From assembly GCF_022095675.1 (NCBI RefSeq), contig NZ_JAHYSG010000052.1, positions 19,682-83,681 on the forward strand: a stretch of 64,000 nucleotides of DNA, written 5' to 3'. Positions 23,484 to 52,924 of the stretch are shown piece after piece (the stretch's first letter is position 1; each line of letters opens with the position of its first letter). The stretch comes from Dactylosporangium sp. AC04546. GTDB lineage: Bacteria > Actinomycetota > Actinomycetes > Mycobacteriales > Micromonosporaceae. A program made the position numbers and the translations under genes. Under the pieces are notes generated by a model, which was not told the DNA's origin, did no database searches, and saw nothing but the letters and a program-made list of their open reading frames with translations.

Positions 23484-23530
23484 TGACGTTCCCGGTCGAC
23501 GACGCGGCGGCCGCCGCGATCGGCTACTGA
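23483..23530 (+). other. 15-codon mini-ORF coupled to the SDR gene (possible truncated gene)
   Basis: An ATG overlaps the SDR stop (TGATG) and opens a frame MTFPVDDAAAAAIGY, then TGA. The stop lies inside the end of the convergent decarboxylase gene. The coupling and codon use resemble the start of a real second gene that was cut off here, so this may mark the left edge of the inserted biosynthetic cluster. Equally, it may be chance. Confidence 0.25.
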
Positions 23531-24825
23531 ACGGGGGCAGTCATGGGCAACCCATTCTCCACAGCGGTGTAGAGGCGCTGCGGCCGCAGGAGGTCCTCGA
23601 CGGTGTCGCGGACCCGGATCAGGTACGACCGGCCGCCGTCGACGAGGACCTCGGCGGGATGGCCGTGGCTGAGGAACAACACCGGCGACGCGCTCGGCCC
23701 GTAGGCGCCCGACCGGAAGATGCCGATGAGGTCGCCCGGGCGTACCGGCGGCAGGTCGACCGCCTTGCCCAGCGTGTCGCTCGGCGTGCAGAGCGGGCCG
23801 GTGACGTGCCACGACTCGGTGGCCGGCGCGTCGCGGCGGTTGAGCACCGCCATCGGGAAGTTGCGCTTGACGAACGAGCCGATGCCGACCGCCGCCATGT
23901 GGTGGTTGGTGCCGCCGTCGGCGACCGCGAACCGCTCCCCCATCGACGTCTTGGTCCCGGTGACCCGCACGACGTAGGTGCCGGCGGTCGCGGCGAGGTA
24001 CCGCCCCGACTCCAGCAGCAGCCGGGTGCCCGGGTGCCGGTCGGCGAACGCCGCCACCACCGGGTTCAGCCGCTCGGTGAGCAGCACCGGGTCGAGGTCG
24101 CGCTCGCCGTCGAAGTAGGCGACGCCGAGGCCCCCGCCGACGTCGACGAGCTCCAGCGGGAAGCCGCACCGGGCGGCGACCCGCTCGGCCAGCTCGAAGA
24201 TCCGCTCGGTGTTCTCGACGATGACGTCCTCGCTGAGGATCCGGGTGCCGACGTACGCCTGGACCCCGATGACCCGCACGCCCGGGCGGCGCAGCAGGTC
24301 CGGGCCGAGGTCGAGGACCTGCTGCTCGTCGATGCCGAACTGGCGCGGCTTGCCGCCCATCGTCAGGCCGGAGCCGCGCACCGAGAAGGCCGGGTTGACC
24401 CGCAGCACGACCGGGGTGACGACGCCGGCGGTGCGGGCGATGCCGTCCACGAGGTCGATCTCGGGCACCGACTCGCAGACCACGGCGGCCAGGCCGGCCC
24501 GGACGCAGGCGGTGAGCTCGGCGACGCTCTTGCCCGGGCCGAGGAAGATGACGTGCTCCGGCGGGATCCCGGCCCGCTGCGCGGTGACCAGCTCGGCCAG
24601 CGACGAGATCTCGGCGCGTGCGCCGAGTGAGCCGAGCAGCGCACAGATCGACAGGTTCGGGTTGGCCTTCAGCGAGAAGAAGATCTCCATCGCCGGGTGC
24701 AGCGCGGCGCGCAGCGTGCCGAACCGGTGGCGCAGTTCGTCGCCGTCGTAGAGGTACATCGGCGTGCCGTAGCGCTCGGCCAGCTCGCCGATCGTGATGC
24801 CCTGCACGGTGTGCTCGCCGGTCAT
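23524..24825 (-). CDS. PLP-dependent decarboxylase, fold type III (DapDC/ODC family)
   Basis: Amino-acid decarboxylase of 433 residues (alanine-racemase-fold group: diaminopimelate, ornithine/arginine or carboxynorspermidine decarboxylases). The PLP lysine is Lys53 in FFSLKANPN. LVDVGGGLGVAYF binds the phosphate, and LLLESGRYLAATAG and the cross-subunit GPLCTPSDTL (Cys and Asp) complete the site. The start ATG overlaps the stop of the ATP-grasp gene (ATGA), so the two are translated together. The pair suggests decarboxylation of an amino acid or of an amino-acyl conjugate made by the ligase. It could be a lysA-like paralogue, but the setting argues for secondary metabolism. Confidence 0.85.
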   Translation of the reverse strand: MTGEHTVQGITIGELAERYGTPMYLYDGDELRHRFGTLRAALHPAMEIFFSLKANPNLSICALLGSLGARAEISSLAELVTAQRAGIPPEHVIFLGPGKSVAELTACVRAGLAAVVCESVPEIDLVDGIARTAGVVTPVVLRVNPAFSVRGSGLTMGGKPRQFGIDEQQVLDLGPDLLRRPGVRVIGVQAYVGTRILSEDVIVENTERIFELAERVAARCGFPLELVDVGGGLGVAYFDGERDLDPVLLTERLNPVVAAFADRHPGTRLLLESGRYLAATAGTYVVRVTGTKTSMGERFAVADGGTNHHMAAVGIGSFVKRNFPMAVLNRRDAPATESWHVTGPLCTPSDTLGKAVDLPPVRPGDLIGIFRSGAYGPSASPVLFLSHGHPAEVLVDGGRSYLIRVRDTVEDLLRPQRLYTAVENGLPMTAPVQ

Positions 24826-26189
24826 GTGGTGGTCCTCTCGGCCAGGCCGGCGAGCCGGCGGGTCAGCTCCTCGTCGATGGCCTCCGCCTCGGTCGCGGTA
24901 CCGGCGACGAGCAGGGCGTAGAGCCGGCCGTCGAACGGCTTGCCGCCCTCGCCGGCGGCCGCGTTGACGGTGGCGAAGTTGTTCACGATCGCGCCGCTGC
25001 CGCCGGCCCGCGCCGGCAGAAGGTCGGCGATCGCGCCGCGCAGCTCGGCGTACGAGACCGGGCGGCCCAGCCGCAGCGGGTACTGCCGGGCCAGGGCCGC
25101 GCCGCCGTCCGGCACGCACGCCTCCTGCAGCCGCACCTGGTAGGTCGACATGTTGCTGCGGGCGTTGATCTCGATGACCGGGAACAGCCGCTCGTCGTCG
25201 CCGACCAGCGCGTCGACCCCGGCGACGCCGTGGTAGCCGTCGGCGGCGAGGGCCGCGCCGATCGCCTCGGCCGCCGCCCGCACCTCGACCAGCTGCGCGG
25301 CGTCGAGCCGGGCCGGCATGCGGTGTCCCTTGTGGACACCGTTGGCGGTGAGCGCCTCCTTGACGAAGTCGAACCGCGGGGTACCGTCGCGGCCCACGGT
25401 GACCTGGTAGTTGAGGTCGGCCCGCTTGCCGACCCAGGTCTCGACGACGAGCGTGAGCCGGTCGTCGCCGCGCCGCTCGGCCCGCTCGTGCAGCTTCCGG
25501 TCGAGCCGCAGCAGCATCGGCTCGTCCCGGACCGTCATGATGCCCTTGCCGGACACCCCGAACGCGTCCTTGACCACGACGGTCCGGCCGGCGGCCAGCA
25601 GCGCGCGGGCGGACTCGGCCGCGGCCCGCCACTCCTGCAGGGTCGTGCAGGTCCAGCCGTCCGGCTGGCGCAGCCCGAGCCGGTCGGCGAGCCGCCGGCT
25701 GTAGATCTTGCTGTTGACCGCCTTGCACACGGCGGCCGGGCTGCCCGCGATCCCCAGGCCGGTCGCCTCGGCCAGCTGCTCCTCCAGGGCCGAGACGCCG
25801 TGCGGGAGCAGTCGGGCCCCGCCCGGCGCGAGGGCCCGGAGCCGGCCGAGCAGCACCGGGTCGGCGAGCGCGTCGGCGGTGACCACGCGGGCCGGGTCGC
25901 CGTCGCCGGCGGCGAGCACGCGCGGCAGGTCGAGGCCGAGCCGGGCCAGGTCGTCGAGGTGGTCCGGGTCGGGCGCGGCCTTGAGCACCACCGCGTCACC
26001 GCCGCCGGCGAGCAGCAGCGCGAACTCGTCCATCCGGTGCACCATCGCCGCGGAAGTGCCGAAGGCGTAGCGGGGCAGCCCCGGCTCGCCCTCCGCCCAG
26101 CGGTCCTCGACCTCGAAGTTGCCGACGAAGACCAGGGGCGTGGCGGCGTCCCCGGTCGTCGCCCGCTTGAGCCGGGGCAGGAATGGCAT
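24822..26189 (-). CDS. ATP-grasp ligase
   Basis: Protein of 455 residues with an ATP-grasp domain in its C-terminal two thirds: TVVVKDAFGVSGKGIMTV binds ATP, VVETWVGKRADLNYQVTV is the linking strand, and PVIEINARSNMST (Glu340, Asn342) binds Mg. The N-terminal 150 residues resemble pre-ATP-grasp domains of peptide-forming carboxylate-amine ligases. It would activate a carboxylate as acyl phosphate and join it to an amine. The next gene is a PLP decarboxylase overlapping by 4 bases. It is divergent from the nucleotide-sugar dehydrogenase across a 155-base promoter region. Substrates are unknown; a ligase for a small peptide or amine conjugate in the cluster is inferred. Confidence 0.75.
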   Translation of the reverse strand: MPFLPRLKRATTGDAATPLVFVGNFEVEDRWAEGEPGLPRYAFGTSAAMVHRMDEFALLLAGGGDAVVLKAAPDPDHLDDLARLGLDLPRVLAAGDGDPARVVTADALADPVLLGRLRALAPGGARLLPHGVSALEEQLAEATGLGIAGSPAAVCKAVNSKIYSRRLADRLGLRQPDGWTCTTLQEWRAAAESARALLAAGRTVVVKDAFGVSGKGIMTVRDEPMLLRLDRKLHERAERRGDDRLTLVVETWVGKRADLNYQVTVGRDGTPRFDFVKEALTANGVHKGHRMPARLDAAQLVEVRAAAEAIGAALAADGYHGVAGVDALVGDDERLFPVIEINARSNMSTYQVRLQEACVPDGGAALARQYPLRLGRPVSYAELRGAIADLLPARAGGSGAIVNNFATVNAAAGEGGKPFDGRLYALLVAGTATEAEAIDEELTRRLAGLAERTTT

Positions 26190-26344: not shown

Positions 26345-27640
26345 ATGCCCGACCAGCAGACCATCACTGACCGCTACGACGTCGCGGTCGTCGGCCTCGG
26401 CTACGTCGGGCTCCCGCTCGCCGGGCTGTTCGCCGCCGCGGGCGTGCGGGCACTCGGGGTCGACACCGACCCGGCGGCCCGGGCCGCGGCGGCCCGCGGC
26501 GAGCCCGGGTTCTTCGAGCCCGGCCTGCCCGGCCTGCTGACGCGGAGCGGGCTCGAGCTGGCCGGCGCCCTGCCCGCGCAGCCGCCGGCCGCGGTGGTCA
26601 TCTGCGTCGGCACCCCGGTCGACGAGGAGACCCGCACGCCGGACCTGCGCCAGCTGGTCGCGGCGACCGAGCACGTGGCCGCCCACCTGGGCCCGGACAC
26701 GCTGGTCGTGGTGCGCAGCACGGTGCCGGTCGGCACCTGCCGCACGGTGGTCCTGCCGATCCTGCGCCGGGCGGTGGACCAGCCGCTGCTGGCGTTCTGC
26801 CCGGAGCGGACGATCCAGGGCCGGGCGGTGGCCGAGATCCAGCAGCTGCCACAGGTGATCGGCGGGCTCGACGAGCGGTCGCTCGAACGGGCGCGCGAGC
26901 TCCTCGCGCCGCTGGCCGCCGACCAGGTCACCGTGTCCTCGCTGGAGGCGGCCGAGCTGGTGAAGCTCGCCTGCAACGCGCACACCGACCTCATCTACGG
27001 CTTCGGCAATGAGCTGGCGACCATCGCCGAGCACCTCGGGCTCGACGCGCACGAGGTGATCCGCGGGGCCAACCTGCGCTACCCGCGGCCCGACCTGGCC
27101 CGGCCCGGGTTCGTCGGCGGCAGCTGCCTGACCAAGGACCCGTACCTGCTCGCGCACAGCGCCCGCGCGGCCGGCTACGAGCCGCCGATGGTCGCCGCGT
27201 CCCGGGCCGTGAACGAGGCGGTACCGGTGCGCGCGGCCCGGCGGGTCCTGGCGGCGCTGGCGGGTCGGGCCACGCCGGTCGCCGAGTGCACGGTGCTCGT
27301 CTGCGGGGTCGCCTACAAGGGCCGCCCGGAGACCGACGACGTGCGCGGCGCCGCGTCGGTGACGATCGCCCGCGAGCTGGGCCCGTGGGTGGGCCGGCTG
27401 CTCGGCCACGACCCGCTCGTGCCGGCGGCCCGCATCGCCGCGGCCGGGCTGGAGCCGGTCGCCCTGGCCGACGGCCTGCGCGCCGCCGACGCGCTGGTCG
27501 TGCTCACCGACCACCCGGCGTACGCCGGCCTGACCGCCGACGTCGTCCGGGCGCCCGTGGTGTTCGACATGTGGAGCGTGCTCGCCGACCGGCTGCGCGA
27601 CGCGCCCGGTGTCGTGTACCTCGAGCTCGGCCGTGGCTGA
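26345..27640 (+). CDS. Nucleotide-sugar dehydrogenase (UDP-glucose/UDP-ManNAc type)
   Basis: Four-electron NAD enzyme of 431 residues that oxidises C6 of a nucleotide sugar to a uronic acid. It has an N-terminal Rossmann fold (VAVVGLGYVGLPLAGLFAAAG), a central helix with LEAAELVKLACNAH, the catalytic Cys261 in GGSCLTKDPY and the C-terminal VLVCGVAYKGRPETDDVR. The CLTKDPY form is closer to WecC/UDP-HexNAc dehydrogenases than to plain Ugd (GGSCFPKD). The ATG at 26345 has GGAGGA upstream. The glycosyltransferase gene overlaps its stop, and the aminotransferase/epimerase operon is nearby, so a uronic or amino-uronic sugar donor is plausible. Confidence 0.88.
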   Translation: MPDQQTITDRYDVAVVGLGYVGLPLAGLFAAAGVRALGVDTDPAARAAAARGEPGFFEPGLPGLLTRSGLELAGALPAQPPAAVVICVGTPVDEETRTPDLRQLVAATEHVAAHLGPDTLVVVRSTVPVGTCRTVVLPILRRAVDQPLLAFCPERTIQGRAVAEIQQLPQVIGGLDERSLERARELLAPLAADQVTVSSLEAAELVKLACNAHTDLIYGFGNELATIAEHLGLDAHEVIRGANLRYPRPDLARPGFVGGSCLTKDPYLLAHSARAAGYEPPMVAASRAVNEAVPVRAARRVLAALAGRATPVAECTVLVCGVAYKGRPETDDVRGAASVTIARELGPWVGRLLGHDPLVPAARIAAAGLEPVALADGLRAADALVVLTDHPAYAGLTADVVRAPVVFDMWSVLADRLRDAPGVVYLELGRG

Positions 27641-28694
27641 GGCCCGGCGCCGGATCCTCACCGTCTTCGCCGGCCTCCCCGGCGGCCAGACATCGGGTGC
27701 GCAGCGCATGGCGTGGCGCACCACGGCCGCCCTCGCCCGCCGCGGCCACATCGTGGCGGTGCGGACCGACGCGGCCCCACCATCCGAGGTGGACACCGCA
27801 TTCGCCGAACCGGCCGGCTTCGTCCCCGACGTCGTGCACGCCTACGACCTGGCGCTGCCCGGCGCGGTGGTGCTGGCCCGGGACCTGGCCCGGCGCTGCG
27901 GTGCCGTGTTCGTCCTCACCCCCGCGTCGGCGCCGTCGGTCTGGCCGGACGTGGACCTCGGGGCCCGGCTGTGCGCCGCCGCCGAGGCGCTCTTCCTGCT
28001 CACCCCGGCCGAGGCGGCGGCGCTGCGGGCGTTCGGCGCCGACCCGGCCCGGCTGCGGACCCTGCCGTCGGCGCCCGATCTCGCCGGCCGCCCGGACCCG
28101 GACGGCTTCCGGGCCCGCCACGGCATCGCCGGCCCACTGGTGCTGTTCCTCGGCCGGCGGGTGGCGACGAAGGGCTACCGGGTGCTGCTCGACGCCGCGC
28201 CGCGGGTCTGGGCCGACCATCCGGGCACGACGTTCGCGTTCGCGGGCCCGTACGCCGAGCCGGGGGCCGCGGCGGCGTTCGCGGCCGCCGACCCGCGGAT
28301 CCGCGACCTCGGCGTGCTGGACGAGCAGGCCAAGCATGACGCGCTCGCCGCCTGCGACGTGTTCTGCCTGCCCACGTCGGCCGACGTGTTCCCGCTGGTC
28401 TTCGCCGAGGCGTGGAGCCTGGCCCGGCCGGTGGTGACCGGCCGGTTCCCGGGGGTGCGCGACGTGGTCGGCGACGGCGTCGACGGCCTGGTGGTGGCGG
28501 CGCGGGCGGCCGACGTGGCGGCGGCCGTGGGCCGGTTGCTGGCCGACCCGGCGCTGCGGGCGGCCCTGGGCGCCCGGGGACGGGCCCGGGTCGCGGCGAC
28601 GATGGGCTGGGACCGGGTCGCCGCCGCGGTGGAGGCCGGCTATCCCGGGTACAGGACCACCTTCAGCGCGCCGCCGCGGTCGAACAGGTCGTAG
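27633..28694 (+). CDS. GT4-type glycosyltransferase
   Basis: GT-B fold glycosyltransferase of 353 residues. The C-terminal domain is clear: LVLFLGRRVATKGYRVLLDA, CDVFCLPTSADVFPLVFAEAWSLARPVV (the EX7E region) and GVRDVVGDGVDGLVV. The GTG at 27633 overlaps the stop of the dehydrogenase (GTGGCTGA), so it is coupled to it. It probably transfers the sugar made by the neighbouring genes to the cluster product. It overlaps the convergent zinc dehydrogenase by 55 bases at its 3' end, which includes its last codons and is unusual. Confidence 0.85.
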   Translation: MAEARRRILTVFAGLPGGQTSGAQRMAWRTTAALARRGHIVAVRTDAAPPSEVDTAFAEPAGFVPDVVHAYDLALPGAVVLARDLARRCGAVFVLTPASAPSVWPDVDLGARLCAAAEALFLLTPAEAAALRAFGADPARLRTLPSAPDLAGRPDPDGFRARHGIAGPLVLFLGRRVATKGYRVLLDAAPRVWADHPGTTFAFAGPYAEPGAAAAFAAADPRIRDLGVLDEQAKHDALAACDVFCLPTSADVFPLVFAEAWSLARPVVTGRFPGVRDVVGDGVDGLVVAARAADVAAAVGRLLADPALRAALGARGRARVAATMGWDRVAAAVEAGYPGYRTTFSAPPRSNRS

Positions 28695-29674
28695 GCCGCG
28701 GGCGCCTCGTCCAGCGGGAACCGGTGCGACACCAGCGCCGCCGGGTCGAGGCGGCCCGAGCTGATGAGCTCCAGCGCCGGCGCCCGGTCGGCGATCGGGT
28801 CCCCCACGACGAACCGGACCGTCAGCTCCCGCGCGAACCCCGTCCCGGTCGGCAGCGGCGCGTCGGTGGCGTGGTGGGCCCCGACGACGGCGATCCGCCC
28901 GCGCGGCCCGGCCACCAGCATCGCCTGGGCCAGGGCGGCCGGAGAGCCGACCGCCTCGACCACCGCGTCGGCCGGTCCGCCGGAGGCGGCGAGCGCGTCC
29001 GCGAGGCCGTCCGGGGCGACCGCCGCGAACCCGAGCGCCTCGGCCGCGGCCCGCCGGGCCGGCAGCGGGTCGGCGACGACGACCCGGGCCGCGCCGGCCT
29101 CCCGGGCACACATGGCGCTGAGCAGGCCGACCGGGCCACCGCCGACGACCGCGACCGACTCACCGGGCGTCACCGAGGAGCGCCGGATCGCGGTGTGCGC
29201 GGTGGTGAGCGTGTCGCACACGAACAGCGCCTGCTCGGGGGTCACCGACGCTGGGCGGCGGGCCAGCACGTACGCGGCGTGCGGCACCAGCACCAGGTCG
29301 GCCTGCCCGCCGTCGACGGCGGCCCCGACGACGGTGGAGTAGCCGAACAGCGTCGCCGACGGGCACTGGTAGTGCCAGCCCCGGGCGCAGACCCGGCAGG
29401 TACCGCAGCTGATGAGGTCGGACGCGAACACCTCGTCGCCGGGCCGGTGGCCGGCGTCGGCGCCGGCGGCGACCACGGTCCCGACGAACTCGTGGCCGAG
29501 CACGGTGCCGGGCGCGAAGCCGGGGATCTCGCCGCGGTACGGGTGCAGGTCGGTGCCGCAGATCGCCGCGCAGGTGACCCGCACCAGCGCGTCGCCGGGC
29601 CCGCACCGGGGCGGCTCGGGCAGGTCGCGGCGCACCCGCACCCGCCGGGGTCCCTCGTACACCACACCGCGCAT
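28640..29674 (-). CDS. Zinc-dependent alcohol/sugar dehydrogenase (MDR)
   Basis: NAD(P) dehydrogenase of 344 residues. Catalytic zinc ligands are Cys39 (CAAICGTDLH), His61 and Glu62 (VLGHEFVG). The structural zinc site is Cys90, Cys93, Cys96 and Cys104 (SCGTCRVCARGWHYQC), and the Rossmann motif is VAVVGGGPVGLLSAM. It belongs to the formaldehyde/threonine/polyol dehydrogenase branch. It is the last gene of the six-gene sugar operon and begins 3 bases after the glycosidase stop. With the DegT aminotransferase it could supply a keto group for amination, as 2-deoxy-scyllo-inosamine dehydrogenases do (analogy only). Confidence 0.88.
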   Translation of the reverse strand: MRGVVYEGPRRVRVRRDLPEPPRCGPGDALVRVTCAAICGTDLHPYRGEIPGFAPGTVLGHEFVGTVVAAGADAGHRPGDEVFASDLISCGTCRVCARGWHYQCPSATLFGYSTVVGAAVDGGQADLVLVPHAAYVLARRPASVTPEQALFVCDTLTTAHTAIRRSSVTPGESVAVVGGGPVGLLSAMCAREAGAARVVVADPLPARRAAAEALGFAAVAPDGLADALAASGGPADAVVEAVGSPAALAQAMLVAGPRGRIAVVGAHHATDAPLPTGTGFARELTVRFVVGDPIADRAPALELISSGRLDPAALVSHRFPLDEAPAAYDLFDRGGALKVVLYPG

Positions 29675-29677
29675 CCC

Positions 29678-31495
29678 TCAGCCCTCCACGTTGACGATCG
29701 CCCAGTCCTTGCCCGGCAGCGCCACGCGCCGGGTCGCGCCGGACGGCCGGCGCAGCTCGGTGTCGGCCGGGGTGGCCCGGTGGTTGACCGCCAGCACCGC
29801 GCCCGGCGGCTCGACCAGCGCCACCAGCTCGACGTCGGGGTCGTCGCACGAGACGTCGGGCACGACGCCGGCGCCGGCCGCGACCGTCGCGTACCAGGCG
29901 TGCCAGGGCGCCGCGTCGAGGCGGTGCGGATGGTCGAGCAGCCGTTCGAGGGGCAGCGGCGCGAAGTAGACGGTGCCGGCGCCGGCCCGGTTGCGCAGCA
30001 GCGCGGGTGCCCCGTCGGCGAACGTCGCGAGCACCTCCGCGGTCGTCGGGCGGACCTCGGCCAGCAGCTCGCCCGCCGGGACGCGCACCGGCCAGGTGAC
30101 GCCGGCCCAGGCGAACTCGCGCGGCCCGCCCTCGGCAAGCGCGAAGTCGACGAGCTCGGCGCCGGCGAGGGCCGCGCCGGGGAAGCCGTGCAGGTGGTCG
30201 TCGAGGGTGAACCAGACGGTACCGCCGGCGCGGACCACGGCGTGCAGGCGGTCGAGGTCGGCCGCGGTCACCTGCTGTACCGAGGGGCAGATCACCACGT
30301 CGTAGCCGGTGAGGTCGCCGGTCACCAGGTCGCAGCGCAGGTGGGCCCGCTTGAGCAGCAGGTAGGCGTAGAACGTGGCGAGCGCCGGCCCGGCCGGGTC
30401 GAGGTACGAGGCGGCGCCACCCGACGGCGGCGGGCCGCCGGCGAAGAGCGCCACCCGGGCCCGGCCCGGCGCCGGGCGCAGCGCGGCCGCGTGCCGGGCC
30501 AGCCGTCGCACGGCGGCCATCCGCGGCTTCGGCACACCGTCCACATCGGACAGCCCGGCGAACCGCTCCATGGGCCGGGCGTCGTAGGGCTCGGCGGTGG
30601 AGGCGACGTCCTGCCAGCACCAGTAGATCGCGCCGAGCCCGCCGCCGGCGAGGCACGACGCCGTGCTCGCGGCGAGGTGCCCGGTCGCGACCGCCTCGTC
30701 GGTGCCGTAGCTGCCGAGCTCGTCCACGAGGGACGGCCGCCAGGCCGACGCGTACCAGGCCGCGAACGCCGCCAGGTGGCTCGCCTTCACCGCGCGGGTC
30801 GACTCGACGCTGCCGGGCGACCAGGTGGGGAACGCGTGCACGGCGGTGACGTCCAGCCCGCCGGTGCGCCGCACGTCGAAGGCCGACGGGCCGAAGACCG
30901 CGCTCGCGTCGTTGGCCTGGCAGACCAGCGTCCCCGGGGCGGCGGCGCGCACCGCGTCGGCGAGCGTGCGCCGCCAGCGCTCGACCTCGGCGACCGTCAG
31001 CCCGGCCGCCTCGGCCGGGTCGACGTTGCCGATCTCGTCGCCGAGGTCGACCAGGAGCAGCGCGTCCGCGCCGGCGAGGGCACCCGCGACGGCGCCGGCG
31101 TAGCGGGCCTGCGCCGCCAGCAGGTCCGGGTCGCGCCACAGGCTGCGGCCGCGCCGCCAGGGCGGGTCGAGCCGCTGGCCGTTCATCCAGATCGTGACGA
31201 GGGACAGCACGCAGGCCAGGCCGTGCCGGCCGGCCGCGTCGACCGCCCAGCGCACCCGGTCGAGCACGGCCGGGTCGAGGCGGCCCTCGTCCGGTTCGGC
31301 GTCGCGCCAGAACAGGAACAGGCGCACGGTGTTCAGCCCGGTCGCGGCGATGGCGGCGAAGTCGTCCTCGACGGCCTTCGGCGCCCAGTCCCGCCACAGC
31401 TCGCAGCCGGCGGCGGCGGGCCAGTAGGTGACGCCGAGCGGGGTGAACGGCGCGCCGTCGCGGGTCAGGCGACCGTTGTCGATGTGGTACGTCAC
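29678..31495 (-). CDS. Cytoplasmic clan GH-A glycoside hydrolase (GH5/GH42-like)
   Basis: Protein of 605 residues without a signal peptide. The N-terminal barrel begins TPLGVTYWPAAAGCELWRDW and continues with the strand LNTVRLFLFWRDAEPDEG. The likely acid/base is the Glu in LLLVDLGDEIGN and the nucleophile the Glu in LVDELGSYGTDE. After about residue 330 a Rossmann-like region (YDVVICPSVQQVTAADL) resembles the trimerisation domain of GH42 beta-galactosidases, and a small beta domain ends the protein. The GTG at 31495 overlaps the aminotransferase stop (GTGA). A cytosolic glycosidase inside a sugar-building operon is odd; it might act as a transglycosidase or remove a protecting sugar. Confidence 0.78.
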   Translation of the reverse strand: MTYHIDNGRLTRDGAPFTPLGVTYWPAAAGCELWRDWAPKAVEDDFAAIAATGLNTVRLFLFWRDAEPDEGRLDPAVLDRVRWAVDAAGRHGLACVLSLVTIWMNGQRLDPPWRRGRSLWRDPDLLAAQARYAGAVAGALAGADALLLVDLGDEIGNVDPAEAAGLTVAEVERWRRTLADAVRAAAPGTLVCQANDASAVFGPSAFDVRRTGGLDVTAVHAFPTWSPGSVESTRAVKASHLAAFAAWYASAWRPSLVDELGSYGTDEAVATGHLAASTASCLAGGGLGAIYWCWQDVASTAEPYDARPMERFAGLSDVDGVPKPRMAAVRRLARHAAALRPAPGRARVALFAGGPPPSGGAASYLDPAGPALATFYAYLLLKRAHLRCDLVTGDLTGYDVVICPSVQQVTAADLDRLHAVVRAGGTVWFTLDDHLHGFPGAALAGAELVDFALAEGGPREFAWAGVTWPVRVPAGELLAEVRPTTAEVLATFADGAPALLRNRAGAGTVYFAPLPLERLLDHPHRLDAAPWHAWYATVAAGAGVVPDVSCDDPDVELVALVEPPGAVLAVNHRATPADTELRRPSGATRRVALPGKDWAIVNVEG

Positions 31496-32634: not shown

Positions 32635-33587
32635 CGCGTGTACCACGCGTACGTCTGCCGCAGCCCGTCTGCCAGGCCGACCGCCGGCTCATAGCCGGTC
32701 AGCTCGCGCAGCCGGCGCAGGTCGGGCGCCCGGCGGTCCGGCGATCCCTGCGGTGCGGGCCGCGGGTCGATCCGGGGCGACCGCCCGGCCAGCGCGCACA
32801 GCCGCCCGGCCAGGTCGGCGATGCGGATCTCCTCGCGGTCGTTGCCGATGTTCACGGTGACCGCACCGGGATCCGGATGTCGCAGGACCGCGACCGTCGC
32901 GTCGACCGCGTCGTCGACATGGCAGAACGAGCGGGTCTGATCGGCGCCGGGCAGACCCAGGGGGTCCTCGCCGCCCTGGATGCGCCCGATGAGCTGCGGG
33001 ATCACGTGCCGGTTGCCCATCCGCGGGCCGTACACGTTGTGGTACCGCGCGATCCGGACCCGGCTCGGCAGCCCGAGATGGCCGAGGAGGTGCTCGCCGG
33101 CCATCTTGCCCAGCGCGTACGCGGTGCGGGGCGAGCCCGGCTCGGCGAGCACCCACGGCACGTCCTCCGGCACCGGGAAGCCGGCCAGCCCGGTGCGGGC
33201 GGCGCCGTCGCCGACCTCGCTGGTCGAGCTGAAGAGCAGCACCGACGGCGGCCGGCGGGCGCACCAGTCGGCGAGGTGGACGGTGCCGAGCAGGTTCGTC
33301 CGCAGCACCGCGGCCGGCCGGGTGAGGGCCTGGGCGACGCCGACGACGGCGGCGAGGTGCACGACCGTGTCGTACGGGTCGGGCAGCAGCGCGTCGGGGA
33401 TCGGCGTGGTGAGGTCGTGGCGGGCGAGCGTGGCGCCGTCGTCGAGGACACGCCGCAGGGCCGGGTCGTCGGCACCGCGGGACAGGTCGTCGAGCAGGGT
33501 GACGGCGGCGCCGTCGCGCTGCAGCCGCCGGGCGAGGTGAAGCCCGACGAACCCGGCGCCCCCGGTGATCAGCACCCGCTCGGTCAT
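32631..33587 (-). CDS. NAD-dependent epimerase/dehydratase
   Basis: Extended SDR of 318 residues acting on a nucleotide sugar. It has the NAD motif GGAGFVG at 9-15, a DDLSRG ribose contact, the active-site FSSTSEVGD stretch at 119-127 and Tyr157/Lys161 in TAYALGKMAGEH. NVYGPRMGNRHVIPQL and RSFCHVDDAVDA are as in UDP-xylose synthase and UDP-glucose 4-epimerase relatives. Whether it epimerises, decarboxylates a UDP-uronic acid or dehydrates cannot be told. If it decarboxylates, it could follow the nucleotide-sugar dehydrogenase at 26.3 kb. It is coupled by 4-base overlaps on both sides. Confidence 0.9.
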   Translation of the reverse strand: MTERVLITGGAGFVGLHLARRLQRDGAAVTLLDDLSRGADDPALRRVLDDGATLARHDLTTPIPDALLPDPYDTVVHLAAVVGVAQALTRPAAVLRTNLLGTVHLADWCARRPPSVLLFSSTSEVGDGAARTGLAGFPVPEDVPWVLAEPGSPRTAYALGKMAGEHLLGHLGLPSRVRIARYHNVYGPRMGNRHVIPQLIGRIQGGEDPLGLPGADQTRSFCHVDDAVDATVAVLRHPDPGAVTVNIGNDREEIRIADLAGRLCALAGRSPRIDPRPAPQGSPDRRAPDLRRLRELTGYEPAVGLADGLRQTYAWYTR

Positions 33588-46161: not shown

Positions 46162-47318
46162 CCGCGTTGGAGGGCGCCGAAGACGGCGAGCCGCTGCACG
46201 TTGCCGGCGCCCTCCATGAACTCGATGCCCCGGGCGTCGCGGGCCAGCTTCTCCAGCAGCGGGTGGTCGAACACCGCGCCGGGGCCGAGCCGGTCGAGGC
46301 ACTCCCGGGTCACGTCCTCGACGAGCCGGGCCGCGCGGACCTTGGCCGCCGACGCGAGGTGCCCGTCGCCCGGGTCGCGGTCCACCGCCTCCGCGGCCCG
46401 CGCGGTCAGCCGCCGCACCGCGGCGATCCGCCGCCCGATGCGGTCCAGCCGCTCGTCCGCCGGCCGGTGGTCGAGGACGTACTCGTAGGCGGCCCGGGCG
46501 ATGCCCAGGCCCATCGCGGCGACCGACGGCCGCAGCAGGTTGAACGTGCGCACCCAGCCCCACATGCCGCGCCGGCTCGCCGGCAGGTGCCGGCCGAGCA
46601 CCCGCTCCGGCGGTACCTCGACGCCGTCGTAGGTCAGCGCGCCGAGCTGGGCGCCGCGCAGGCCGATGGTCGGCACCGGCTCGGCCGTGATGCCGCGCAT
46701 GCCGGGGCGTCCGGGCCCTCCGGGGCTTCCGGGCCCTCCGGGCTCGATGAGCACGGCGGCGAAGCCGAGCGGGCCGGTGCCGGTACGGGCGAACGTCACC
46801 CCGAGCCGGGCCCGCACGGCGTTGCCGACGTACCGCTTCCCGCCGTCGAGCACGAGTGTGCCGTCGCCGCGGGTGGTCAGGGTCGTGCGCATCCCGGTGG
46901 CGTCGGAGCCGCGGCCGGCCTCGGTGAGCGCGAAGCACGTCCAGGTCGGACCGCCGGGGCCGGACAGCAGCCGGTCGAAGAACCAGTCCTGCTGCGCCGG
47001 GCTGCCGAGCGCGCCGACGAGCACGCCGGCCATCGCACCGCCGGGCGCGGCGAGGGTCAGGCCGAGGTCGCCCCACGCCAGCTCCTCCAGGAACACCACC
47101 CGCTCGGCGGCGCTGTCCAGGTAGAACCTGTGCCCGTCGAGCACGAGGGGATCCGGGTTGTACTGCGGGGGGATCTGCAGGCGGGCCACCCGCGACAGCG
47201 CCGGCAGCCCGAGGTGCCGCACGACGGCGTCGGGGTCGCGGTCCACCTCCAGCGCGTGCGGGCGCAGCTCGGCGGCCCACTCCCGGGTCTGCGCGCGCAG
47301 CACCGCCAGCCGGTTCAC
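46137..47318 (-). CDS. Acyl-CoA dehydrogenase family flavoprotein
   Basis: FAD enzyme of 393 residues introducing a double bond into an acyl (or aminoacyl) thioester. It shows the flavin-binding TCFALTEAGRGSDATGMRT, LDGGKRYVGNA and the C-terminal IEFMEGAGNVQRLAVFG with the likely base Glu. A Gly/Pro-rich insert (GGPGSPGGPGRPGMRG) sits in the middle beta domain. The GTG at 47318 overlaps the stop of the shorter relative upstream (GTGA). Together with the A domain and carrier proteins it recalls the aminoacyl-carrier dehydrogenases of pyrrole pathways (analogy). Confidence 0.88.
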   Translation of the reverse strand: MNRLAVLRAQTREWAAELRPHALEVDRDPDAVVRHLGLPALSRVARLQIPPQYNPDPLVLDGHRFYLDSAAERVVFLEELAWGDLGLTLAAPGGAMAGVLVGALGSPAQQDWFFDRLLSGPGGPTWTCFALTEAGRGSDATGMRTTLTTRGDGTLVLDGGKRYVGNAVRARLGVTFARTGTGPLGFAAVLIEPGGPGSPGGPGRPGMRGITAEPVPTIGLRGAQLGALTYDGVEVPPERVLGRHLPASRRGMWGWVRTFNLLRPSVAAMGLGIARAAYEYVLDHRPADERLDRIGRRIAAVRRLTARAAEAVDRDPGDGHLASAAKVRAARLVEDVTRECLDRLGPGAVFDHPLLEKLARDARGIEFMEGAGNVQRLAVFGALQRGQLALEPA

Positions 47319-47953: not shown

Positions 47954-47964
47954 GGTGCACTCCC

Positions 47965-48858
47965 TCAACGGACGAGCAGGGACGGGCGGAGGATGGTGTC
48001 GCCGTGGTGCATGACCGGTTCGAGCAGCTCGGTGAGGTGCCAGAACGCACCCTTGGGCACCCGGTTGGCCGGCCAGGCGGCGCCGTCCACGATGCCCCAC
48101 CGGCCGAGGACCAGGTTGAAGAACGGGTCGGCGGTCCGCCACTCGCCGCCGATGCGCAGCTCCAGCCAGCAGTGGGTGTTGGCGAACGGCCGGGAGAGGT
48201 GGATCCCGGCCGCCGGACGGACGTCCAGCCCGAGGCGGCGGCCGACGTGCACGAGGTACCGGGTCGCGGACCGGCAGTCGGCCAGCCCGGTCTCCGCGGT
48301 GAAGCCCACGTCGGCGATCACGTGGTAGGGAACGCGGTGGAACTCCAGAGCCGCGGCCGCCTCGACGAGCTGCCAGTGCGCGGGGCCGAAGTCCAGCAGC
48401 TCGGCCGGGCCGCCCGGCACCTCGACCGCGATCTGGTAGTGCCCGCCGGCCATCCGCGTGATCTCCCGGGCGGCGGCGCGGACCGGCGCGGCGAGGGTGA
48501 CGTCGCAGTCGCCCTCGTGGCCGGGCGCCGGGCAGCCGGCCGTCACGTTCAGGGTCCGCCGGACGACCGCGTGCCGGCTGCCGTGCTCCAGGGCCTCGGC
48601 CATCGACCGCAGCGCGGTGTGCTGGGGCGAGCGGACCGACAGGCGCAGCACGACGTTCTTGAGGTCGCGCCGGTCGAACAACAGCCGGTCGCCGTCGCGG
48701 GCGTGCGGCAGGCCGTGGTCGAGCAGGCCGGTCAGCAGCTCCGGCGGGATGCGGTAGAAGCGGGTGACCCGCTCCTGCGGCTCGGTGTAGGCGCGGAACC
48801 GGTCGGGGACGCGGTTGATCCGCTCGACGACGACGGCGACGCTCTCGTCCGAGGTCAT
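47965..48858 (-). CDS. Transglutaminase-like protein
   Basis: Protein of 297 residues with a C-terminal transglutaminase/arylamine-acetyltransferase-like fold. The triad is Cys195 (LADCRSATRYLV), His229 (NTHCWLEL) and Asp244 (WRTADPFFNLV). The N-terminal 130 residues are a separate domain of unknown role. In andrimid biosynthesis the homologous-fold AdmF joins carrier-bound acyl and aminoacyl chains, so an amide-forming role here is possible; a peptidase role is the alternative. The ATG at 48858 overlaps the O-methyltransferase stop (ATGA), and the short dehydrogenase-like gene follows after 11 bases. Confidence 0.8.
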   Translation of the reverse strand: MTSDESVAVVVERINRVPDRFRAYTEPQERVTRFYRIPPELLTGLLDHGLPHARDGDRLLFDRRDLKNVVLRLSVRSPQHTALRSMAEALEHGSRHAVVRRTLNVTAGCPAPGHEGDCDVTLAAPVRAAAREITRMAGGHYQIAVEVPGGPAELLDFGPAHWQLVEAAAALEFHRVPYHVIADVGFTAETGLADCRSATRYLVHVGRRLGLDVRPAAGIHLSRPFANTHCWLELRIGGEWRTADPFFNLVLGRWGIVDGAAWPANRVPKGAFWHLTELLEPVMHHGDTILRPSLLVR

Positions 48859-49895
48859 CGGCGGCGGCCCAGGACGAGCCCGTTGCCGGGGGCACTGCGC
48901 AGCGGGACGGTCCGCACCCGGGTCAGGCCGGCGGCGCGGAACCATCCGGCGACCTGGTCGAGGTGGTAGGTCTGCTGCCCGAGCGCGTTGAACATGCTCA
49001 GCGCCATGAACGAGCCGAACGCGCGGCCGACGCCGCCGAGCCGCCGGTCGCGGAACTGGTCGAGCAGCACGACCTGGCCGCCCGGCTCGGTCGCGCTCGC
49101 GGCGCGCTCGATCAGCTTGACGTTCTGCGCCTCGCTCTTGGAGTGGATGACGTTGAACAGCAGGATGATCGAGGCACTGCCGAGGTCGTCGGTGAAGAAG
49201 TCGCCGGCCCGGAACGAGATGCGCTCCGCCAGCCCGTGTTCGGCGATGGTACTGCGAGCGATGCGCTCCATCGACGGGATCTCGAACACGGTCGCGGTGA
49301 GCCGCGGGTGGCGCTTGCAGAACTCGATGCTGTACAGGCCGTGCCCGCCGCCGATGTCGAGCAGGTGCTGGTCGCCCTTGGCGACGGCGACCCGGCGCAG
49401 CACCTCGTCGAGGTTGAGGTTGGCCAGCGCGACCATGCCGTCCTGGAACAACCGCCACTCCTTGGCCAGCCACCGCGGGGTGCGCGGCTCGTCGACCTCG
49501 AACGGCAGGCCGGACTCGCCGCGGAGGCGGTCCTCCAGGGTCTGCCAGTCGGTGAAGACGATCTTCTCGAAGTACGGCAGCCCCATCCCTACCATGTCGA
49601 CCAGCGCGGCCGCCCGCCCGGTGGCCCGGTAGCGCCCACCCGGCCCGGCCTCGACGTACCCGAGCACGTCGAGCGCGTCGAGCAGGAAGCCGGTGCCGCG
49701 CGGGTCGAGGCCGAGCCGGCCGGCGAGCGCGGCGCTGTCCGCCGGCTCCTGCCGCAGCGCGTCGAGGACGCCGAGCCGGAAGCCGGCGAGCACCGCCCGG
49801 AACCCCCAGACGGAGAGGAACTCCTGCAGAAACGCGGTCTGCGGGCCCCGTGGTCCGGTCAGCCGCCCCTCCCGGAAACTGGGAACGATTGGCAT
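48855..49895 (-). CDS. SAM-dependent O-methyltransferase (acetylserotonin/CrtF type)
   Basis: Methyltransferase of 346 residues with an N-terminal winged-helix dimerisation domain (FRLGVLDALRQEPADSAALA, FLLDALDVLGYVE) and a C-terminal SAM fold (LLDIGGGHGLYSIEF, FEIPSMERIAR, FFTDDLGSASIILLFNVIH). The usual catalytic His is probably the one in NVIHSKS. It methylates a hydroxyl of a small molecule. The ATG at 49895 has GAAGGAG upstream. First gene of a four-gene minus-strand operon, divergent from the MATE exporter. Confidence 0.9.
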   Translation of the reverse strand: MPIVPSFREGRLTGPRGPQTAFLQEFLSVWGFRAVLAGFRLGVLDALRQEPADSAALAGRLGLDPRGTGFLLDALDVLGYVEAGPGGRYRATGRAAALVDMVGMGLPYFEKIVFTDWQTLEDRLRGESGLPFEVDEPRTPRWLAKEWRLFQDGMVALANLNLDEVLRRVAVAKGDQHLLDIGGGHGLYSIEFCKRHPRLTATVFEIPSMERIARSTIAEHGLAERISFRAGDFFTDDLGSASIILLFNVIHSKSEAQNVKLIERAASATEPGGQVVLLDQFRDRRLGGVGRAFGSFMALSMFNALGQQTYHLDQVAGWFRAAGLTRVRTVPLRSAPGNGLVLGRRR

Positions 49896-50125: not shown

Positions 50126-51469
50126 ATGACATCGACACCCGAGTCCAGCACGGTCACGACCGACACCGAGACCGCCGCACCCGCGGAGCCGACGCTGCTG
50201 CGCACAGCGATCCGGTTCGCACTGTCGATCCTCTTCGGCATGGCCGCCGGGATCGTCCTGCAGGTGTGGACGATGGCGTTCCTCGGCTGGCTCGGGCGGG
50301 AGGCGCTGTACGTCCGCTCGATCTACACGCCGGTCGGGTTCATCACGACCGCGATCGTCGAGGGCCTGGTGGTGGCGGCCCAGGTGTCGGCCGGCATCGC
50401 GACCCGCACCGGGCGGCGCGAGGACGCGCTGCGGCACCTGCCGACGTTCGTCGCGGTCGGCGGCGGCTTCCTCGCGGTGACCACGCTGGTCTTCGTCGCG
50501 TTCGCCGACCCGTTCCTGGCCGTCCTGGAGGTCACCCAGGAGCAGCGGCGCCCGGTCGTCGAGTTCGTCGTCGCCGTCACCGCCTCGTCGATCCTCGGCC
50601 TCGTGCCGTACCTGTGCGGCGCGGCCCTGCGCGGCGTCGGCCGGCCCGGCCTGTCGACCGCGCTGGGCGTCCCGTTCGCCGTGCTGTCCATCGTGGGCAT
50701 GCTGCTGTGCAACGAGCTCACCGGCCTCGGCGCGCTCAGCGTCCCGGTCGGCGGCCTGCTCGGCACGGTCGTCATCGGCGTCGCGTCGGTCGTCGTGCTG
50801 CGCCGGTGCGACCTGCGCGCGCCGGGCTGGCGCCTGGACCGCGCGGCGCTGCGCGCCGCCTGGACCCTGGCCGCACCGGTCGCCGCCACGTTCCTGCTGC
50901 TGTCGGTGGTCACCTTCGGCTACCTGCGGGTGCTGCGCGACGCCGGCGACGTCGACATCGCCGGCTTCAGCCTCGGCCAGATGGCGACCTCGTTCCTCAT
51001 GGTCGGCGCCTTCGCCGCCGGCTCCGGCGCGGCGATCGCCGTCAACCTGCGGCCCGGGGAGCAGCGCCGGGAGCTCAACGAGCGCGGGCTGGTGGTCACG
51101 GCGCGCATCGCGATGCTCGTCTACCTGGCGGTCGGCGCGGTCAGCTTCCTGCTGCGCGACCCGATCGCGCGGCTGCTGACCTCCGACCGCGAGATCGCCG
51201 CGGTCGCCGCCGACTACCTGCAGTGGCTCGCCCCCACGTTCGCGCTCTTCGGTGCCACCCTCGCCATCCTCACGTACCTCGAGCAGATCGGCCGGGCCGG
51301 CGCCGCCGCGCTGCTGAACACCGTCTACTTCGCCATCGTGCTCGGCGTCGCGTTCCTGCTGTCCCAGCCGGTCGACAGCGACGCACTCGCCCGCCTGCTG
51401 GCGATCAGCAACGTCGTCGGGTTCGCCAGCCTGTGGTACAGCGTCCGCTATCTCGTCCGCCGCACGTGA
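50126..51469 (+). CDS. MATE family multidrug exporter
   Basis: Integral membrane antiporter of 447 residues with about 12 predicted membrane segments in two halves (LFGMAAGIVLQVWTMAFLGWLGREAL near the start; MATSFLMVGAFAAGSGAAIAVN in the second half). It moves organic, often cationic, molecules out with Na or H uptake. The ATG at 50126 follows CGGAG. It lies at the right side of the cluster, between the O-methyltransferase operon and an exported beta-glucosidase, and is the best candidate for product export. Confidence 0.9.
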   Translation: MTSTPESSTVTTDTETAAPAEPTLLRTAIRFALSILFGMAAGIVLQVWTMAFLGWLGREALYVRSIYTPVGFITTAIVEGLVVAAQVSAGIATRTGRREDALRHLPTFVAVGGGFLAVTTLVFVAFADPFLAVLEVTQEQRRPVVEFVVAVTASSILGLVPYLCGAALRGVGRPGLSTALGVPFAVLSIVGMLLCNELTGLGALSVPVGGLLGTVVIGVASVVVLRRCDLRAPGWRLDRAALRAAWTLAAPVAATFLLLSVVTFGYLRVLRDAGDVDIAGFSLGQMATSFLMVGAFAAGSGAAIAVNLRPGEQRRELNERGLVVTARIAMLVYLAVGAVSFLLRDPIARLLTSDREIAAVAADYLQWLAPTFALFGATLAILTYLEQIGRAGAAALLNTVYFAIVLGVAFLLSQPVDSDALARLLAISNVVGFASLWYSVRYLVRRT

Positions 51470-51522: not shown

Positions 51523-51529
51523 CGCCGCC

Positions 51530-52924
51530 ATGCGACGCCGTTCTCTGCTCGCCCTGGCCGGGTTGGGCGCGTTGGCCGGCTGCGCCCGCACCGGCGCCAC
51601 CGTCCAACCGGCGGCCGGCCCGTCCGGCGCCTCCGCCACCTTCCCGCCCGGCTTCGGCTGGGGCGCGTCCACGTCGGCGTACCAGATCGAGGGCGCCGCG
51701 ACCGAGGACGGCCGTGGCCCGTCGGTCTGGGACGTCTTCAGCCACGAGGCGGGCCGGACCCGCAACGGGGACACCGGCGACGTGGCCGCCGACCACTACC
51801 ATCGCCTCACCGGCGACCTGGACCTGATGCGGGACCTCGGCCTGCGCTCGTACCGCTTCTCGGTCTCCTGGTCGCGGGTGCTGCCGACCGGCCGCGGCGC
51901 GGTGAACCAGCAGGGCCTGGACTTCTACCGCCGGCTCGTCGACGGCCTGCGCGAGCGCGGCATCGCGCCGGTCGTCACGCTGTTCCACTGGGACACCCCG
52001 CAGGCCCTCCAGGAGCTGGGCGGCTGGGAGAACCGGGACTGCGCGCAGTGGTTCGCGGACTACGCCCACACGATGTACACGGCGCTTGGCGACGCGGACC
52101 CGACGTGGCTGACGCTGAACGAACCGAAGACCGTCGTCGATGTCGGCTACACGGCCGGCATCCACGCCCCGGGCAAGCGCGACCGCCAGCTGGCCAACAT
52201 CGTCGGCCACCACCTGCTGCTGGGCCACGGCCTGGCGGTGCAGGCGCTGCGCGCGGCCGGCACCGGCGGACGGATCGGCGCCGCCCTGTCACTGTCGCCG
52301 GTCTATCCCGCCGACGAGACGGACGCGGCCCGCAGCCAGGCGACGGCGTCGGACGCCGAGGAGAACCGCCGCTGGCTCGACCCGGTCCTGAAGGGCAGCT
52401 ACCCGCAGGACTGGCTGGCGACCCAGCCGGCCGCCGTCCGCACGGCGATGCGCGACGGCGACCTGGCCGTGATCGGCACCGCGAGCGACCTGCTGGGCGT
52501 GAACTACTACGGCCCGACCCACATCACCGGCACGGGCTCCCGCGTCATGAAACACCCGACGTCGCAGGCGACGTGGCAGGAGATCGACCCGAACGGATTG
52601 TACGATCTGCTGACCCGCATCAAGCGCGACTACGGCGACGTCCCGCTGACCATCACCGAGAACGGCATGCCCACGACGAACGCCTTCGACGACCAGGACC
52701 GCGTCACGTTCCTGCGCGAGCACTTCGCGGCCGCCCACCGCGCTATCGCCGCGGGCGTGAAGCTGGAGAGCTACCACGTCTGGTCCCTGATGGACAACTT
52801 CGAGTGGGCCGAGGGCTACACCCAACGCTGGGGCATGGTCCACGTCGACTACACCACCCAGCAGCGCACGCTCAAGGCCAGCGCCAGGTGGTACAAGGAA
52901 GTGATCGCCCGCAACGGCGTCTGA
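51530..52924 (+). CDS. Exported (lipoprotein) beta-glucosidase, GH1
   Basis: Retaining beta-glycosidase of 464 residues. The N-terminus is an export signal with a lipobox (MRRRSLLALAGLGALAGCAR, Cys18), unusual because most bacterial GH1 enzymes are cytoplasmic. GH1 motifs are FGWGASTSAYQIEGA, the acid/base Glu in LTLNEPKTV, LGVNYYGPTH, the nucleophile Glu in LTITENGMPT and SLMDNFEWAEGY. It has a leaderless-type start with TAGGTT 7 bases upstream. It sits next to the MATE exporter, so it may remove a protecting glucose from the exported product; plain cellobiose use is the alternative. Confidence 0.9.
   Translation: MRRRSLLALAGLGALAGCARTGATVQPAAGPSGASATFPPGFGWGASTSAYQIEGAATEDGRGPSVWDVFSHEAGRTRNGDTGDVAADHYHRLTGDLDLMRDLGLRSYRFSVSWSRVLPTGRGAVNQQGLDFYRRLVDGLRERGIAPVVTLFHWDTPQALQELGGWENRDCAQWFADYAHTMYTALGDADPTWLTLNEPKTVVDVGYTAGIHAPGKRDRQLANIVGHHLLLGHGLAVQALRAAGTGGRIGAALSLSPVYPADETDAARSQATASDAEENRRWLDPVLKGSYPQDWLATQPAAVRTAMRDGDLAVIGTASDLLGVNYYGPTHITGTGSRVMKHPTSQATWQEIDPNGLYDLLTRIKRDYGDVPLTITENGMPTTNAFDDQDRVTFLREHFAAAHRAIAAGVKLESYHVWSLMDNFEWAEGYTQRWGMVHVDYTTQQRTLKASARWYKEVIARNGV

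Follow-up and report, generated by a model that had tools for sequence, protein, structure and literature searches.

Congocidine and distamycin, together with a two-part pyrrolamide gene cluster, are reported for Streptomyces netropsis in work that describes 4-acetamidopyrrole-2-carboxylate as a key precursor of the pyrrolamides and 3-aminopropionamidine as the amine partner in congocidine (PMC4047045), and a review gives N-acetylglucosamine as the origin of the congocidine pyrrole (PMC10058459). In the formation of butirosin, BtrK is reported to convert BtrI-S-Glu to BtrI-S-GABA (GABA, gamma-aminobutyrate), and we take the roles of both BtrI and BtrK from that account (PMC7857480). Here we analyze a 64,000-nt stretch of DNA from Dactylosporangium sp. 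AC04546 (the window; positions 19682-83681 of contig C52 of the assembly), in which 26 genes at 23524-51469 fit a biosynthetic cluster that combines likenesses to both systems (Table 1). The cluster probably makes a new relative of the DNA-binding pyrrolamide antibiotics instead of a sugar-decorated fatty acid. With some confidence, we favor a pyrrolamide-like pseudopeptide built from two feeder lines, in which a pyrrole would be linked to an aminoacyl unit formed while bound to a carrier protein.

Orthology of the sugar genes with pyrrolamide clusters

When genome contigs were queried with the glycoside hydrolase gene (29678-31495), 18 loci were returned, ten of them from Streptomyces species including S. 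netropsis (strain CECT 3265 here, CGMCC 4.1650 in PMC4047045). A gene was counted in a locus if it had a reciprocal best match there over half or more of the query. Apart from that of S. netropsis, the Streptomyces loci extend about 5 to 10 kb per side beyond the match, which makes absences there soft. All eight genes of what we call the pyrrole block, aldehyde dehydrogenase included, have counterparts in the S. netropsis locus. The UDP-sugar dehydrogenase, glycosyltransferase, glycoside hydrolase, aminotransferase and epimerase are present in all ten Streptomyces loci, and the Zn-dependent dehydrogenase and nucleotidyltransferase in nine. To guard against confusion with common paralogues, we searched the whole S. 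netropsis genome for three of the genes, and the cluster copy was the best match for the aminotransferase (56% identity, 403 bits; next paralogue, 142), the aldehyde dehydrogenase (61%, 526 bits; next, 264) and the UDP-sugar dehydrogenase (51%, 404 bits; next, 102). When six pyrrole-block proteins were concatenated (19 rows, 2348 columns; matches below 60% of query length left out, the Marinitenerispora locus absent, and locus L018 replaced by the longer S. netropsis region), an unrooted tree placed the window with the related non-Streptomyces loci described below, apart from the Streptomyces loci, with a support of 1.0.

On these sequence comparisons, the sugar block is orthologous to genes of the pyrrolamide clusters of congocidine and distamycin. 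Because of this orthology, and because the congocidine pyrrole originates from N-acetylglucosamine, the block together with the aldehyde dehydrogenase most likely makes 4-acetamidopyrrole-2-carboxylate and probably no glycoside. Exactly these sugar genes reportedly form the pyrrole in the work of Lautru et al. from 2012. The initial annotation had read them as an amino-sugar or glycosylation branch and had placed the entire gene set outside any described pathway; for the sugar genes neither statement is supported, since the block matches clusters of the congocidine/distamycin type. Its product guess fares better in part, in that a pseudopeptide stays reasonable and a glycosylated acyl-amino acid is now less likely.

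A full-length pyrrole glycoside hydrolase (E <1e-160) occurs in four of 200 Micromonosporaceae genomes, that of the window included, and a phylum-wide draw of 396 genomes gave matches below 1e-40 only in the window's own genome and, at 37% identity, in one other. The 37% match is full-length and lies at G253:C6:100363-102081 (L074), in a genome of 2.2 Mb from the same phylum.

Carrier-protein genes and the cassette shared with other genomes

Nine loci elsewhere combine the pyrrole block with a relative of the 3-ketoacyl-ACP synthase III (KAS III; ACP, acyl carrier protein) of the window: one from Marinitenerispora, three from Micromonospora, two from Amycolatopsis, one each from Actinoplanes italicus and Nonomuraea fuscirosea, and one from genome G043. 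Because the two halves recur jointly in these loci with differing gene orders, the cluster is not a chance assembly, and the initial proposal of one cluster built from discrete carrier-protein enzymes holds. Eight of the loci span about 39-40 kb; the Marinitenerispora locus sits on an 8.8 kb contig and is counted within the nine although truncated, and the Micromonospora radicis stretch ends within the amidase gene. KAS III is found in all nine loci and in none of the ten Streptomyces loci, and it was matched in eight of the nine genomes searched whole, S. netropsis being the exception. The ketosynthase (KS)-like protein, ACP, LCM-family methyltransferase, diverged AMP-ligase and carrier protein 3, which resembles a peptidyl carrier protein (PCP), each occur in eight of the nine, the ninth being the 8.8 kb contig; the ligase has no reciprocal match in the Streptomyces loci and carrier protein 3 is matched in two of them. 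From the pyrrole block, the glycoside hydrolase is present in nine of nine, and the glycosyltransferase, Zn-dependent dehydrogenase, epimerase, nucleotidyltransferase and aldehyde dehydrogenase are present in eight each.

The remaining genes are less constant. The decarboxylase is found in seven related loci, and the ATP-grasp ligase, amidase and acyl-CoA dehydrogenase (ACAD) in six each, so that the pyrrole block stands together with the decarboxylase in 7/9 and with the ATP-grasp ligase in 6/9. The ACAD-like partner is counted in five (a fused copy in Amycolatopsis sp. WAC 01376 excluded), the transglutaminase-like gene, the O-methyltransferase and the MATE exporter in four each (the last at 27-31% identity), the LuxR-type regulator in five (and in 1/10 Streptomyces loci) and the free condensation (C) domain in one (4/10 Streptomyces loci). 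Carrier protein 1 has no reciprocal match in the nine. Within the stretches fetched, KAS III, ATP-grasp, BtrK-like decarboxylase, ACAD pair, amidase and transglutaminase-like genes were found in none of the ten Streptomyces loci. A PhoX alkaline phosphatase, recognized by Pfam at L037:6435-8354, has 83-98% identical copies in the other two Micromonospora loci and G043, and is possibly a sign of phosphorylation-based self-protection. Open-access PMC papers yielded no product for the window cluster or for the nine related loci in searches that, among the strains, named Micromonospora only.

Part of this gene set travels as a unit of its own. In a survey of 200 Micromonosporaceae genomes, the window's own included, KAS III was matched past 1e-50 in 47 genomes (61 places), the ATP-grasp ligase past 1e-70 in 24 genomes (26 places) and the ACAD past 1e-60 in 22 genomes (25 places). 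KAS III lies within 79 bp of the ATP-grasp gene at 25 of the 26 ATP-grasp places, the exception being the window, where 13.6 kb separate them, and an ACAD lies within 8 kb at 20 of the 26; 21 of the 24 ATP-grasp genomes lack a full-length pyrrole glycoside hydrolase. Twenty of the 26 places were examined as cassette loci (L077-L096, about 20 kb each). In all 20, the genes for KAS III, ATP-grasp and decarboxylase follow one another without interruption, and the KS-like gene is present too; the next gene after the decarboxylase encodes an ACP in 18, and a short-type ACAD gene follows the KS-like gene in 16. Pyrrole-block genes were not matched in 19 of these loci, and L085 has two. Free C domains are common neighbors, and an AMP-ligase and long ACADs occur in some loci; because the neighbors vary, the cassette unit appears to be handed to different partners. 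An acidic amino acid would fit as its substrate, since a gene for methylaspartate mutase E (PF06368; Pfam was run on this locus) stands at L083:2652-3908, in one run of genes with the cassette and three genes upstream of it, and has a homologue in L082; this suggests 3-methylaspartate as the substrate in L083. Taken together, these loci suggest that an acidic amino acid is the starting material of the unit made by the cassette, and that this unit goes to varied partners. Searches of open-access PMC papers aimed at the cassette turned up no description of it. In the window's own genome, the sole ATP-grasp match at 1e-70 is the window gene, and a second KAS III of this family (48%) lies at G000:C44:75912-76829, with a carrier protein adjoining at 76902-77111.

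The sequences of the individual enzymes are informative to different degrees. The best solved relatives of the decarboxylase are BtrK structures (7ru7/2j66, 304 bits), compared with 180 bits for the best diaminopimelate decarboxylase, which places it by similarity in the BtrK subfamily; the ATP-grasp ligase has weak matches only among PDB structures. All 11 KAS III sequences compared keep the Cys, the His and a GHC/GHS motif, the last of which puts His where Asn is usual, so that a Cys-His-His set stands in each of them where a FabH-type Cys-His-Asn triad was looked for. The adjacent KS-like protein has no Cys among the invariant columns of ten sequences and conserves a DQG motif in eight of eight; a description of this motif as standing at the Cys position was discarded, because the Cys-aligned residue varies and the alignment itself is weak. 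Its AlphaFold2 model (predicted local distance difference test score, pLDDT, 85.1) gave 586 Foldseek matches in the PDB at E <=0.001, the best 50 of which are KAS III or close relatives, and the sequence gave a single KAS III hit (9z38, E 9e-5); a KAS III fold is therefore predicted from the model and this weak hit. The Glu of the C-terminal MEG motif, which we take to be the catalytic base, is kept in the window ACAD and in all six relatives that have the gene. For the ACAD-like partner, a profile built from 20 homologues matches C-terminal parts of ACADs, and the best 50 of 82 Foldseek matches (E <=0.001) to its AlphaFold2 model (pLDDT 90.6) are ACAD-family proteins with TM-scores of 0.42-0.56. 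At L046:2525-3937, in Amycolatopsis sp. WAC 01376, the KS-like protein and the ACAD-like partner appear to be fused in one protein of 470 aa.

Among the assembly genes, the pocket motifs of the free adenylation (A) domain differ from those of the large S. netropsis synthetase and are more like those of additional free A proteins, about 510-523 aa long, in six Streptomyces loci; on account of its pocket motifs, the free A domain was rejected as the activator of the pyrrole. The amidase gene overlaps that of carrier protein 3 by 4 bp, and one of the two Amycolatopsis loci, both of which lack the amidase, has an Abhydrolase_3 gene (Pfam) beside the carrier. The C domain is 24-30% identical to those of the Streptomyces loci. 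In the transglutaminase-like protein C195, H229 and D244 are invariant in four of four sequences and by analogy may form its triad.

Proposed pathway and competing explanations

From gene content, orthology, conserved residues and predicted folds we infer the reactions, enzyme pairings, order and product set out here. In the first line (26345-35622 and the aldehyde dehydrogenase at 40828), a nucleotide sugar of the N-acetylglucosamine type would, as for congocidine, be oxidized, given an amino group and rearranged into 4-acetamidopyrrole-2-carboxylate; the diverged ligase (33584) would load this acid onto carrier protein 3 (43167), and the amidase (43433) would strip the acetyl group from the carrier-bound pyrrole. 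In the second line, the ATP-grasp ligase (24822) would load glutamate or another acidic amino acid onto carrier protein 2 (39501), the BtrK-like decarboxylase (23524) would convert it to a gamma- or beta-aminoacyl thioester, the ACAD pair (46137/47315) would desaturate this thioester, and the KAS III pair (39765/38685) would then transfer or lengthen the aminoacyl unit. The free C domain and the transglutaminase-like enzyme may form the amide bonds, the free A domain may contribute one further residue, the two methyltransferases would decorate the product with one or two methyl groups, and the MATE protein would export it. Judged from the gene set, the most economical product would be a pyrrole-2-carboxamide carrying a decarboxylated, probably desaturated aminoacyl unit, a further residue and methyl groups. 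Tentatively, and with less conviction than we hold for the pathway as a whole, we suggest that the cluster represents an undescribed pyrrolamide branch, in which the portable cassette, with its ATP-grasp loading, decarboxylation, two-part ACAD and two-part KAS III, would make the end group on a carrier and so yield a pyrrole amide that bears a reactive dehydro-amino acyl group. Many actinobacteria may draw building blocks of this kind from the cassette as a general source.

A number of observations weigh against this pathway. Both Amycolatopsis loci lack the decarboxylase, the ATP-grasp ligase and the amidase within the 40 kb fetched, yet have KAS III, ACP and ACAD; an ATP-grasp match lies on another contig in one of these genomes and there is none in the other, and therefore the second line cannot be identical everywhere. 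For Actinoplanes italicus, which has the decarboxylase, the genome gave no ATP-grasp match, and in the stretches fetched neither this species nor Nonomuraea has the ACAD pair. Genome G197 has the cassette, the ligase, carrier protein 3 and the LCM-family methyltransferase, and from the eight block genes only the UDP-sugar dehydrogenase and the nucleotidyltransferase; the best match to the aminotransferase, at 42%, lies elsewhere in this genome, which is not among the glycoside-hydrolase genomes. The ligase therefore may not always activate a pyrrole, and a simpler sugar-derived acid may take the place of the pyrrole in G197 or in the wider family. The aldehyde dehydrogenase is found in only three of the ten Streptomyces loci, with their short flanks (four by a looser rule), the related loci offer no close counterpart of the free A domain or its carrier (the A domain having 26-29% matches in two of the nine, compared with 34-37% matches in 9/10 Streptomyces loci), and 35 of the 61 KAS III places have no adjacent ATP-grasp match. 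Moreover, Cys-His-His does not discriminate acyl transfer from condensation, and the KAS III-fold partner aligned poorly with the window KAS III in hhalign (E 0.074, probability <1%; the fused Amycolatopsis sp. WAC 01376 protein left out).

Some of these points would suit a different use of the pyrrole, in which the KAS III pair condenses the carrier-bound pyrrole, as a starter, with a malonyl unit to give a short pyrrole polyketide with no amide. KAS III, present in all nine related loci, is steadier there than the decarboxylase or the ATP-grasp ligase, many of its family-wide copies stand apart from the ligase as just noted, and Cys-His-His resembles the triad of KAS I/II, which is decarboxylative. 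Such a role agrees less well with the close pairing of KAS III and ATP-grasp genes at nearly all ATP-grasp places, and with the 21 genomes in which KAS III would work without this pyrrole, since they have no full-length pyrrole glycoside hydrolase. In addition, Pfam recognizes no acyltransferase or ketoreductase domain within 23524-51469, a short-chain dehydrogenase standing just outside, and we regard the pyrrole polyketide as unlikely. Less probable again is the earlier guess of an amino sugar that would be produced by the sugar genes and attached to an acyl-amino acid. The cluster does encode a glycosyltransferase, a nucleotidyltransferase and an aminotransferase, and G197 retains just the nucleotidyltransferase and the UDP-sugar dehydrogenase beside the cassette, but all of the block, with its glycosyltransferase and glycoside hydrolase, is orthologous to genes of a congocidine- and distamycin-producing species, in which the key precursor is reported as 4-acetamidopyrrole-2-carboxylate (PMC4047045). 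That several unrelated operons are chance neighbors is disfavored and very improbable, for although the ATP-grasp/decarboxylase pair of the window lies 13.6 kb from KAS III, unlike the arrangement at 25 other places, and the related loci have no close orthologues of the free A domain and its carrier, the pyrrole block and KAS III co-occur in differing gene orders in nine other loci.

Extent of the cluster and relation to known systems

Fifty-seven genes were called in the window with a codon-usage gene finder. The assembly comprises 13.0 Mb in 348 contigs, with completeness put at 99.75% and contamination estimated at 11.5%; contamination ratings of 4-10% were also found for sampled members of the genus, so the value may be related to the genus instead of to mixed DNA. 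Pfam and NCBIfam scans located every part named in the initial annotation, and all three free carrier proteins were recovered by PF00550 in a whole-genome search, each with a Ser motif. Because the longest gene of the interval codes for only 605 aa, there is no modular polyketide synthase or nonribosomal peptide synthetase (NRPS) in it, as had been claimed. Two genes, the diverged AMP-ligase (33584-34897) and the aldehyde dehydrogenase (40828-42240), are added to the earlier list, and of the acyl-CoA dehydrogenases named there, one is a full ACAD and the second is better described as an ACAD-like partner. The proposed interval 23524-52924 stands as far as 51469; its last gene, a GH1 glucosidase (51530-52924) considered as a cluster member, has a counterpart in none of the nine related loci and probably lies outside. 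The left flank (GH5, GT2, HxlR and a short-chain dehydrogenase, the last at 22737-23483 directly outside the cluster) and the right flank (GH1, a 204-aa protein with no Pfam or NCBIfam match, and a NACHT-associated/WD40 protein) look unrelated. The last of these, adjoining the cluster at 53810-58669, is a protein of 1619 aa with a NACHT-associated inactive nuclease domain and WD40 repeats.

Table 1. Genes of the cluster, with window positions, strand and the basis of each assignment
Gene product	Position	Strand	Basis
Pyridoxal phosphate-dependent decarboxylase, BtrK-like; predicted aminoacyl-carrier-protein decarboxylase	23524..24825	-	Pfam Orn_Arg_deC
PreATP-grasp/ATP-grasp ligase; predicted loader of acidic amino acid onto ACP	24822..26189	-	PF18604 above, PF02222 slightly below cut-off
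UDP-sugar 6-dehydrogenase, pyrrole block	26345..27640	+	Pfam
GT4-type glycosyltransferase, pyrrole block	27633..28694	+	Pfam
Zn-dependent dehydrogenase, pyrrole block	28640..29674	-	Pfam
Glycoside hydrolase (GH5/GH42M-like), pyrrole block	29678..31495	-	Pfam
DegT-family sugar aminotransferase, pyrrole block	31492..32634	-	Pfam
NAD-dependent epimerase/dehydratase, pyrrole block	32631..33587	-	Pfam
Diverged AMP-ligase; predicted pyrrole-acid activator	33584..34897	-	PF00501
Sugar-1-phosphate nucleotidyltransferase, pyrrole block	34894..35622	-	Pfam
Free NRPS A domain	35810..37351	+	TIGR01733, 353.7 bits
Carrier protein 1, adjoins free A domain	37367..37642	+	PF00550; LDSL motif
LuxR-type regulator	37846..38472	-	PF00196
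KAS III-fold partner (KS-like), no conserved Cys	38685..39494	-	No Pfam match; predicted fold
Carrier protein 2 (ACP), KAS III cassette	39501..39746	-	PF00550; FDST motif
KAS III with Cys-His-His	39765..40703	-	PF08541
Aldehyde dehydrogenase, assigned to pyrrole block	40828..42240	+	Pfam and S. netropsis match
LCM-family methyltransferase	42182..43039	-	PF04072
Carrier protein 3 (PCP-like), predicted pyrrole carrier	43167..43436	+	PF00550; GGDS motif
Amidase, predicted deacetylase of carrier-bound 4-acetamidopyrrole	43433..44797	+	PF01425
Free condensation domain	44809..46161	+	PF00668; SHxxxDG motif
Acyl-CoA dehydrogenase (ACAD)	46137..47318	-	PF00441, PF02770
ACAD-like partner, 212 aa	47315..47953	-	No Pfam match; profile and predicted fold
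Transglutaminase-like enzyme, amide-forming or amide-breaking	47965..48858	-	PF01841, 23.3 bits against a cut-off of 23.0
O-methyltransferase	48855..49895	-	PF00891
MATE exporter	50126..51469	+	PF01554

A cluster that had looked unreadable is thus given a testable structure class, although we infer both its product and its KAS III chemistry. The sugar-to-pyrrole route of the DNA-binding pyrrolamides would then also operate outside Streptomyces, with a different assembly logic, and the tightly ordered trio of KAS III, ATP-grasp and BtrK-like decarboxylase, usually with ACP, KS-like protein and ACAD, becomes recognizable across the family in which its ATP-grasp ligase marks 24 of 200 genomes.

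The cluster shares with the pyrrolamide clusters (cgc of congocidine and pya of S. netropsis) the eight pyrrole-block genes, a free C domain, free carriers and a LuxR-type regulator, and the proposed product would, by analogy, be similar in layout to congocidine. Pyrrolamides are characterized by 4-aminopyrrole-2-carboxamide units. The cluster differs from those of the pyrrolamides in having no large A-domain synthetase of the Cgc18 type (1056 aa in S. netropsis). Cgc2, Cgc16 and Cgc19 comprise two free C domains and a free PCP, whereas the window has one C domain and three carriers, and the pyrrole deacetylase of the pyrrolamide clusters is the amidohydrolase Cgc14/Pya25, the place of which would be taken in the window by the PF01425 amidase with its overlapping carrier gene. 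Moreover, KAS III, ATP-grasp, the BtrK-like decarboxylase, the ACAD pair, the amidase and the transglutaminase-like enzyme set the window apart from the Streptomyces pyrrolamide loci fetched. An ATP-grasp enzyme, Ant23, reportedly figures in the anthelvencin system described by Aubry et al. in 2020.

The butirosin side-chain system (BtrI/BtrJ/BtrK, BtrJ being the ATP-grasp ligase) likewise pairs a BtrK-like decarboxylase with a free carrier and an ATP-grasp ligase, but no BtrO-type monooxygenase was found here, the Pfam scans of the 26 genes having returned no monooxygenase, and KAS III and ACAD pairs are present instead. With ChlB3 and with PqsBC, in which the partner has no active Cys, the window shares the KAS III fold, ChlB3 being among the weak hits of both window KAS III proteins; unlike these, it has His in place of the Asn of the triad and a KAS III that is tied to an ATP-grasp/decarboxylase pair. 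The stand-alone cassettes of the family resemble the second line in their KAS III, ATP-grasp, decarboxylase, ACP, KS-like and ACAD genes, and have AMP-ligase, long ACAD or C-domain genes nearby where the window has the pyrrole block.

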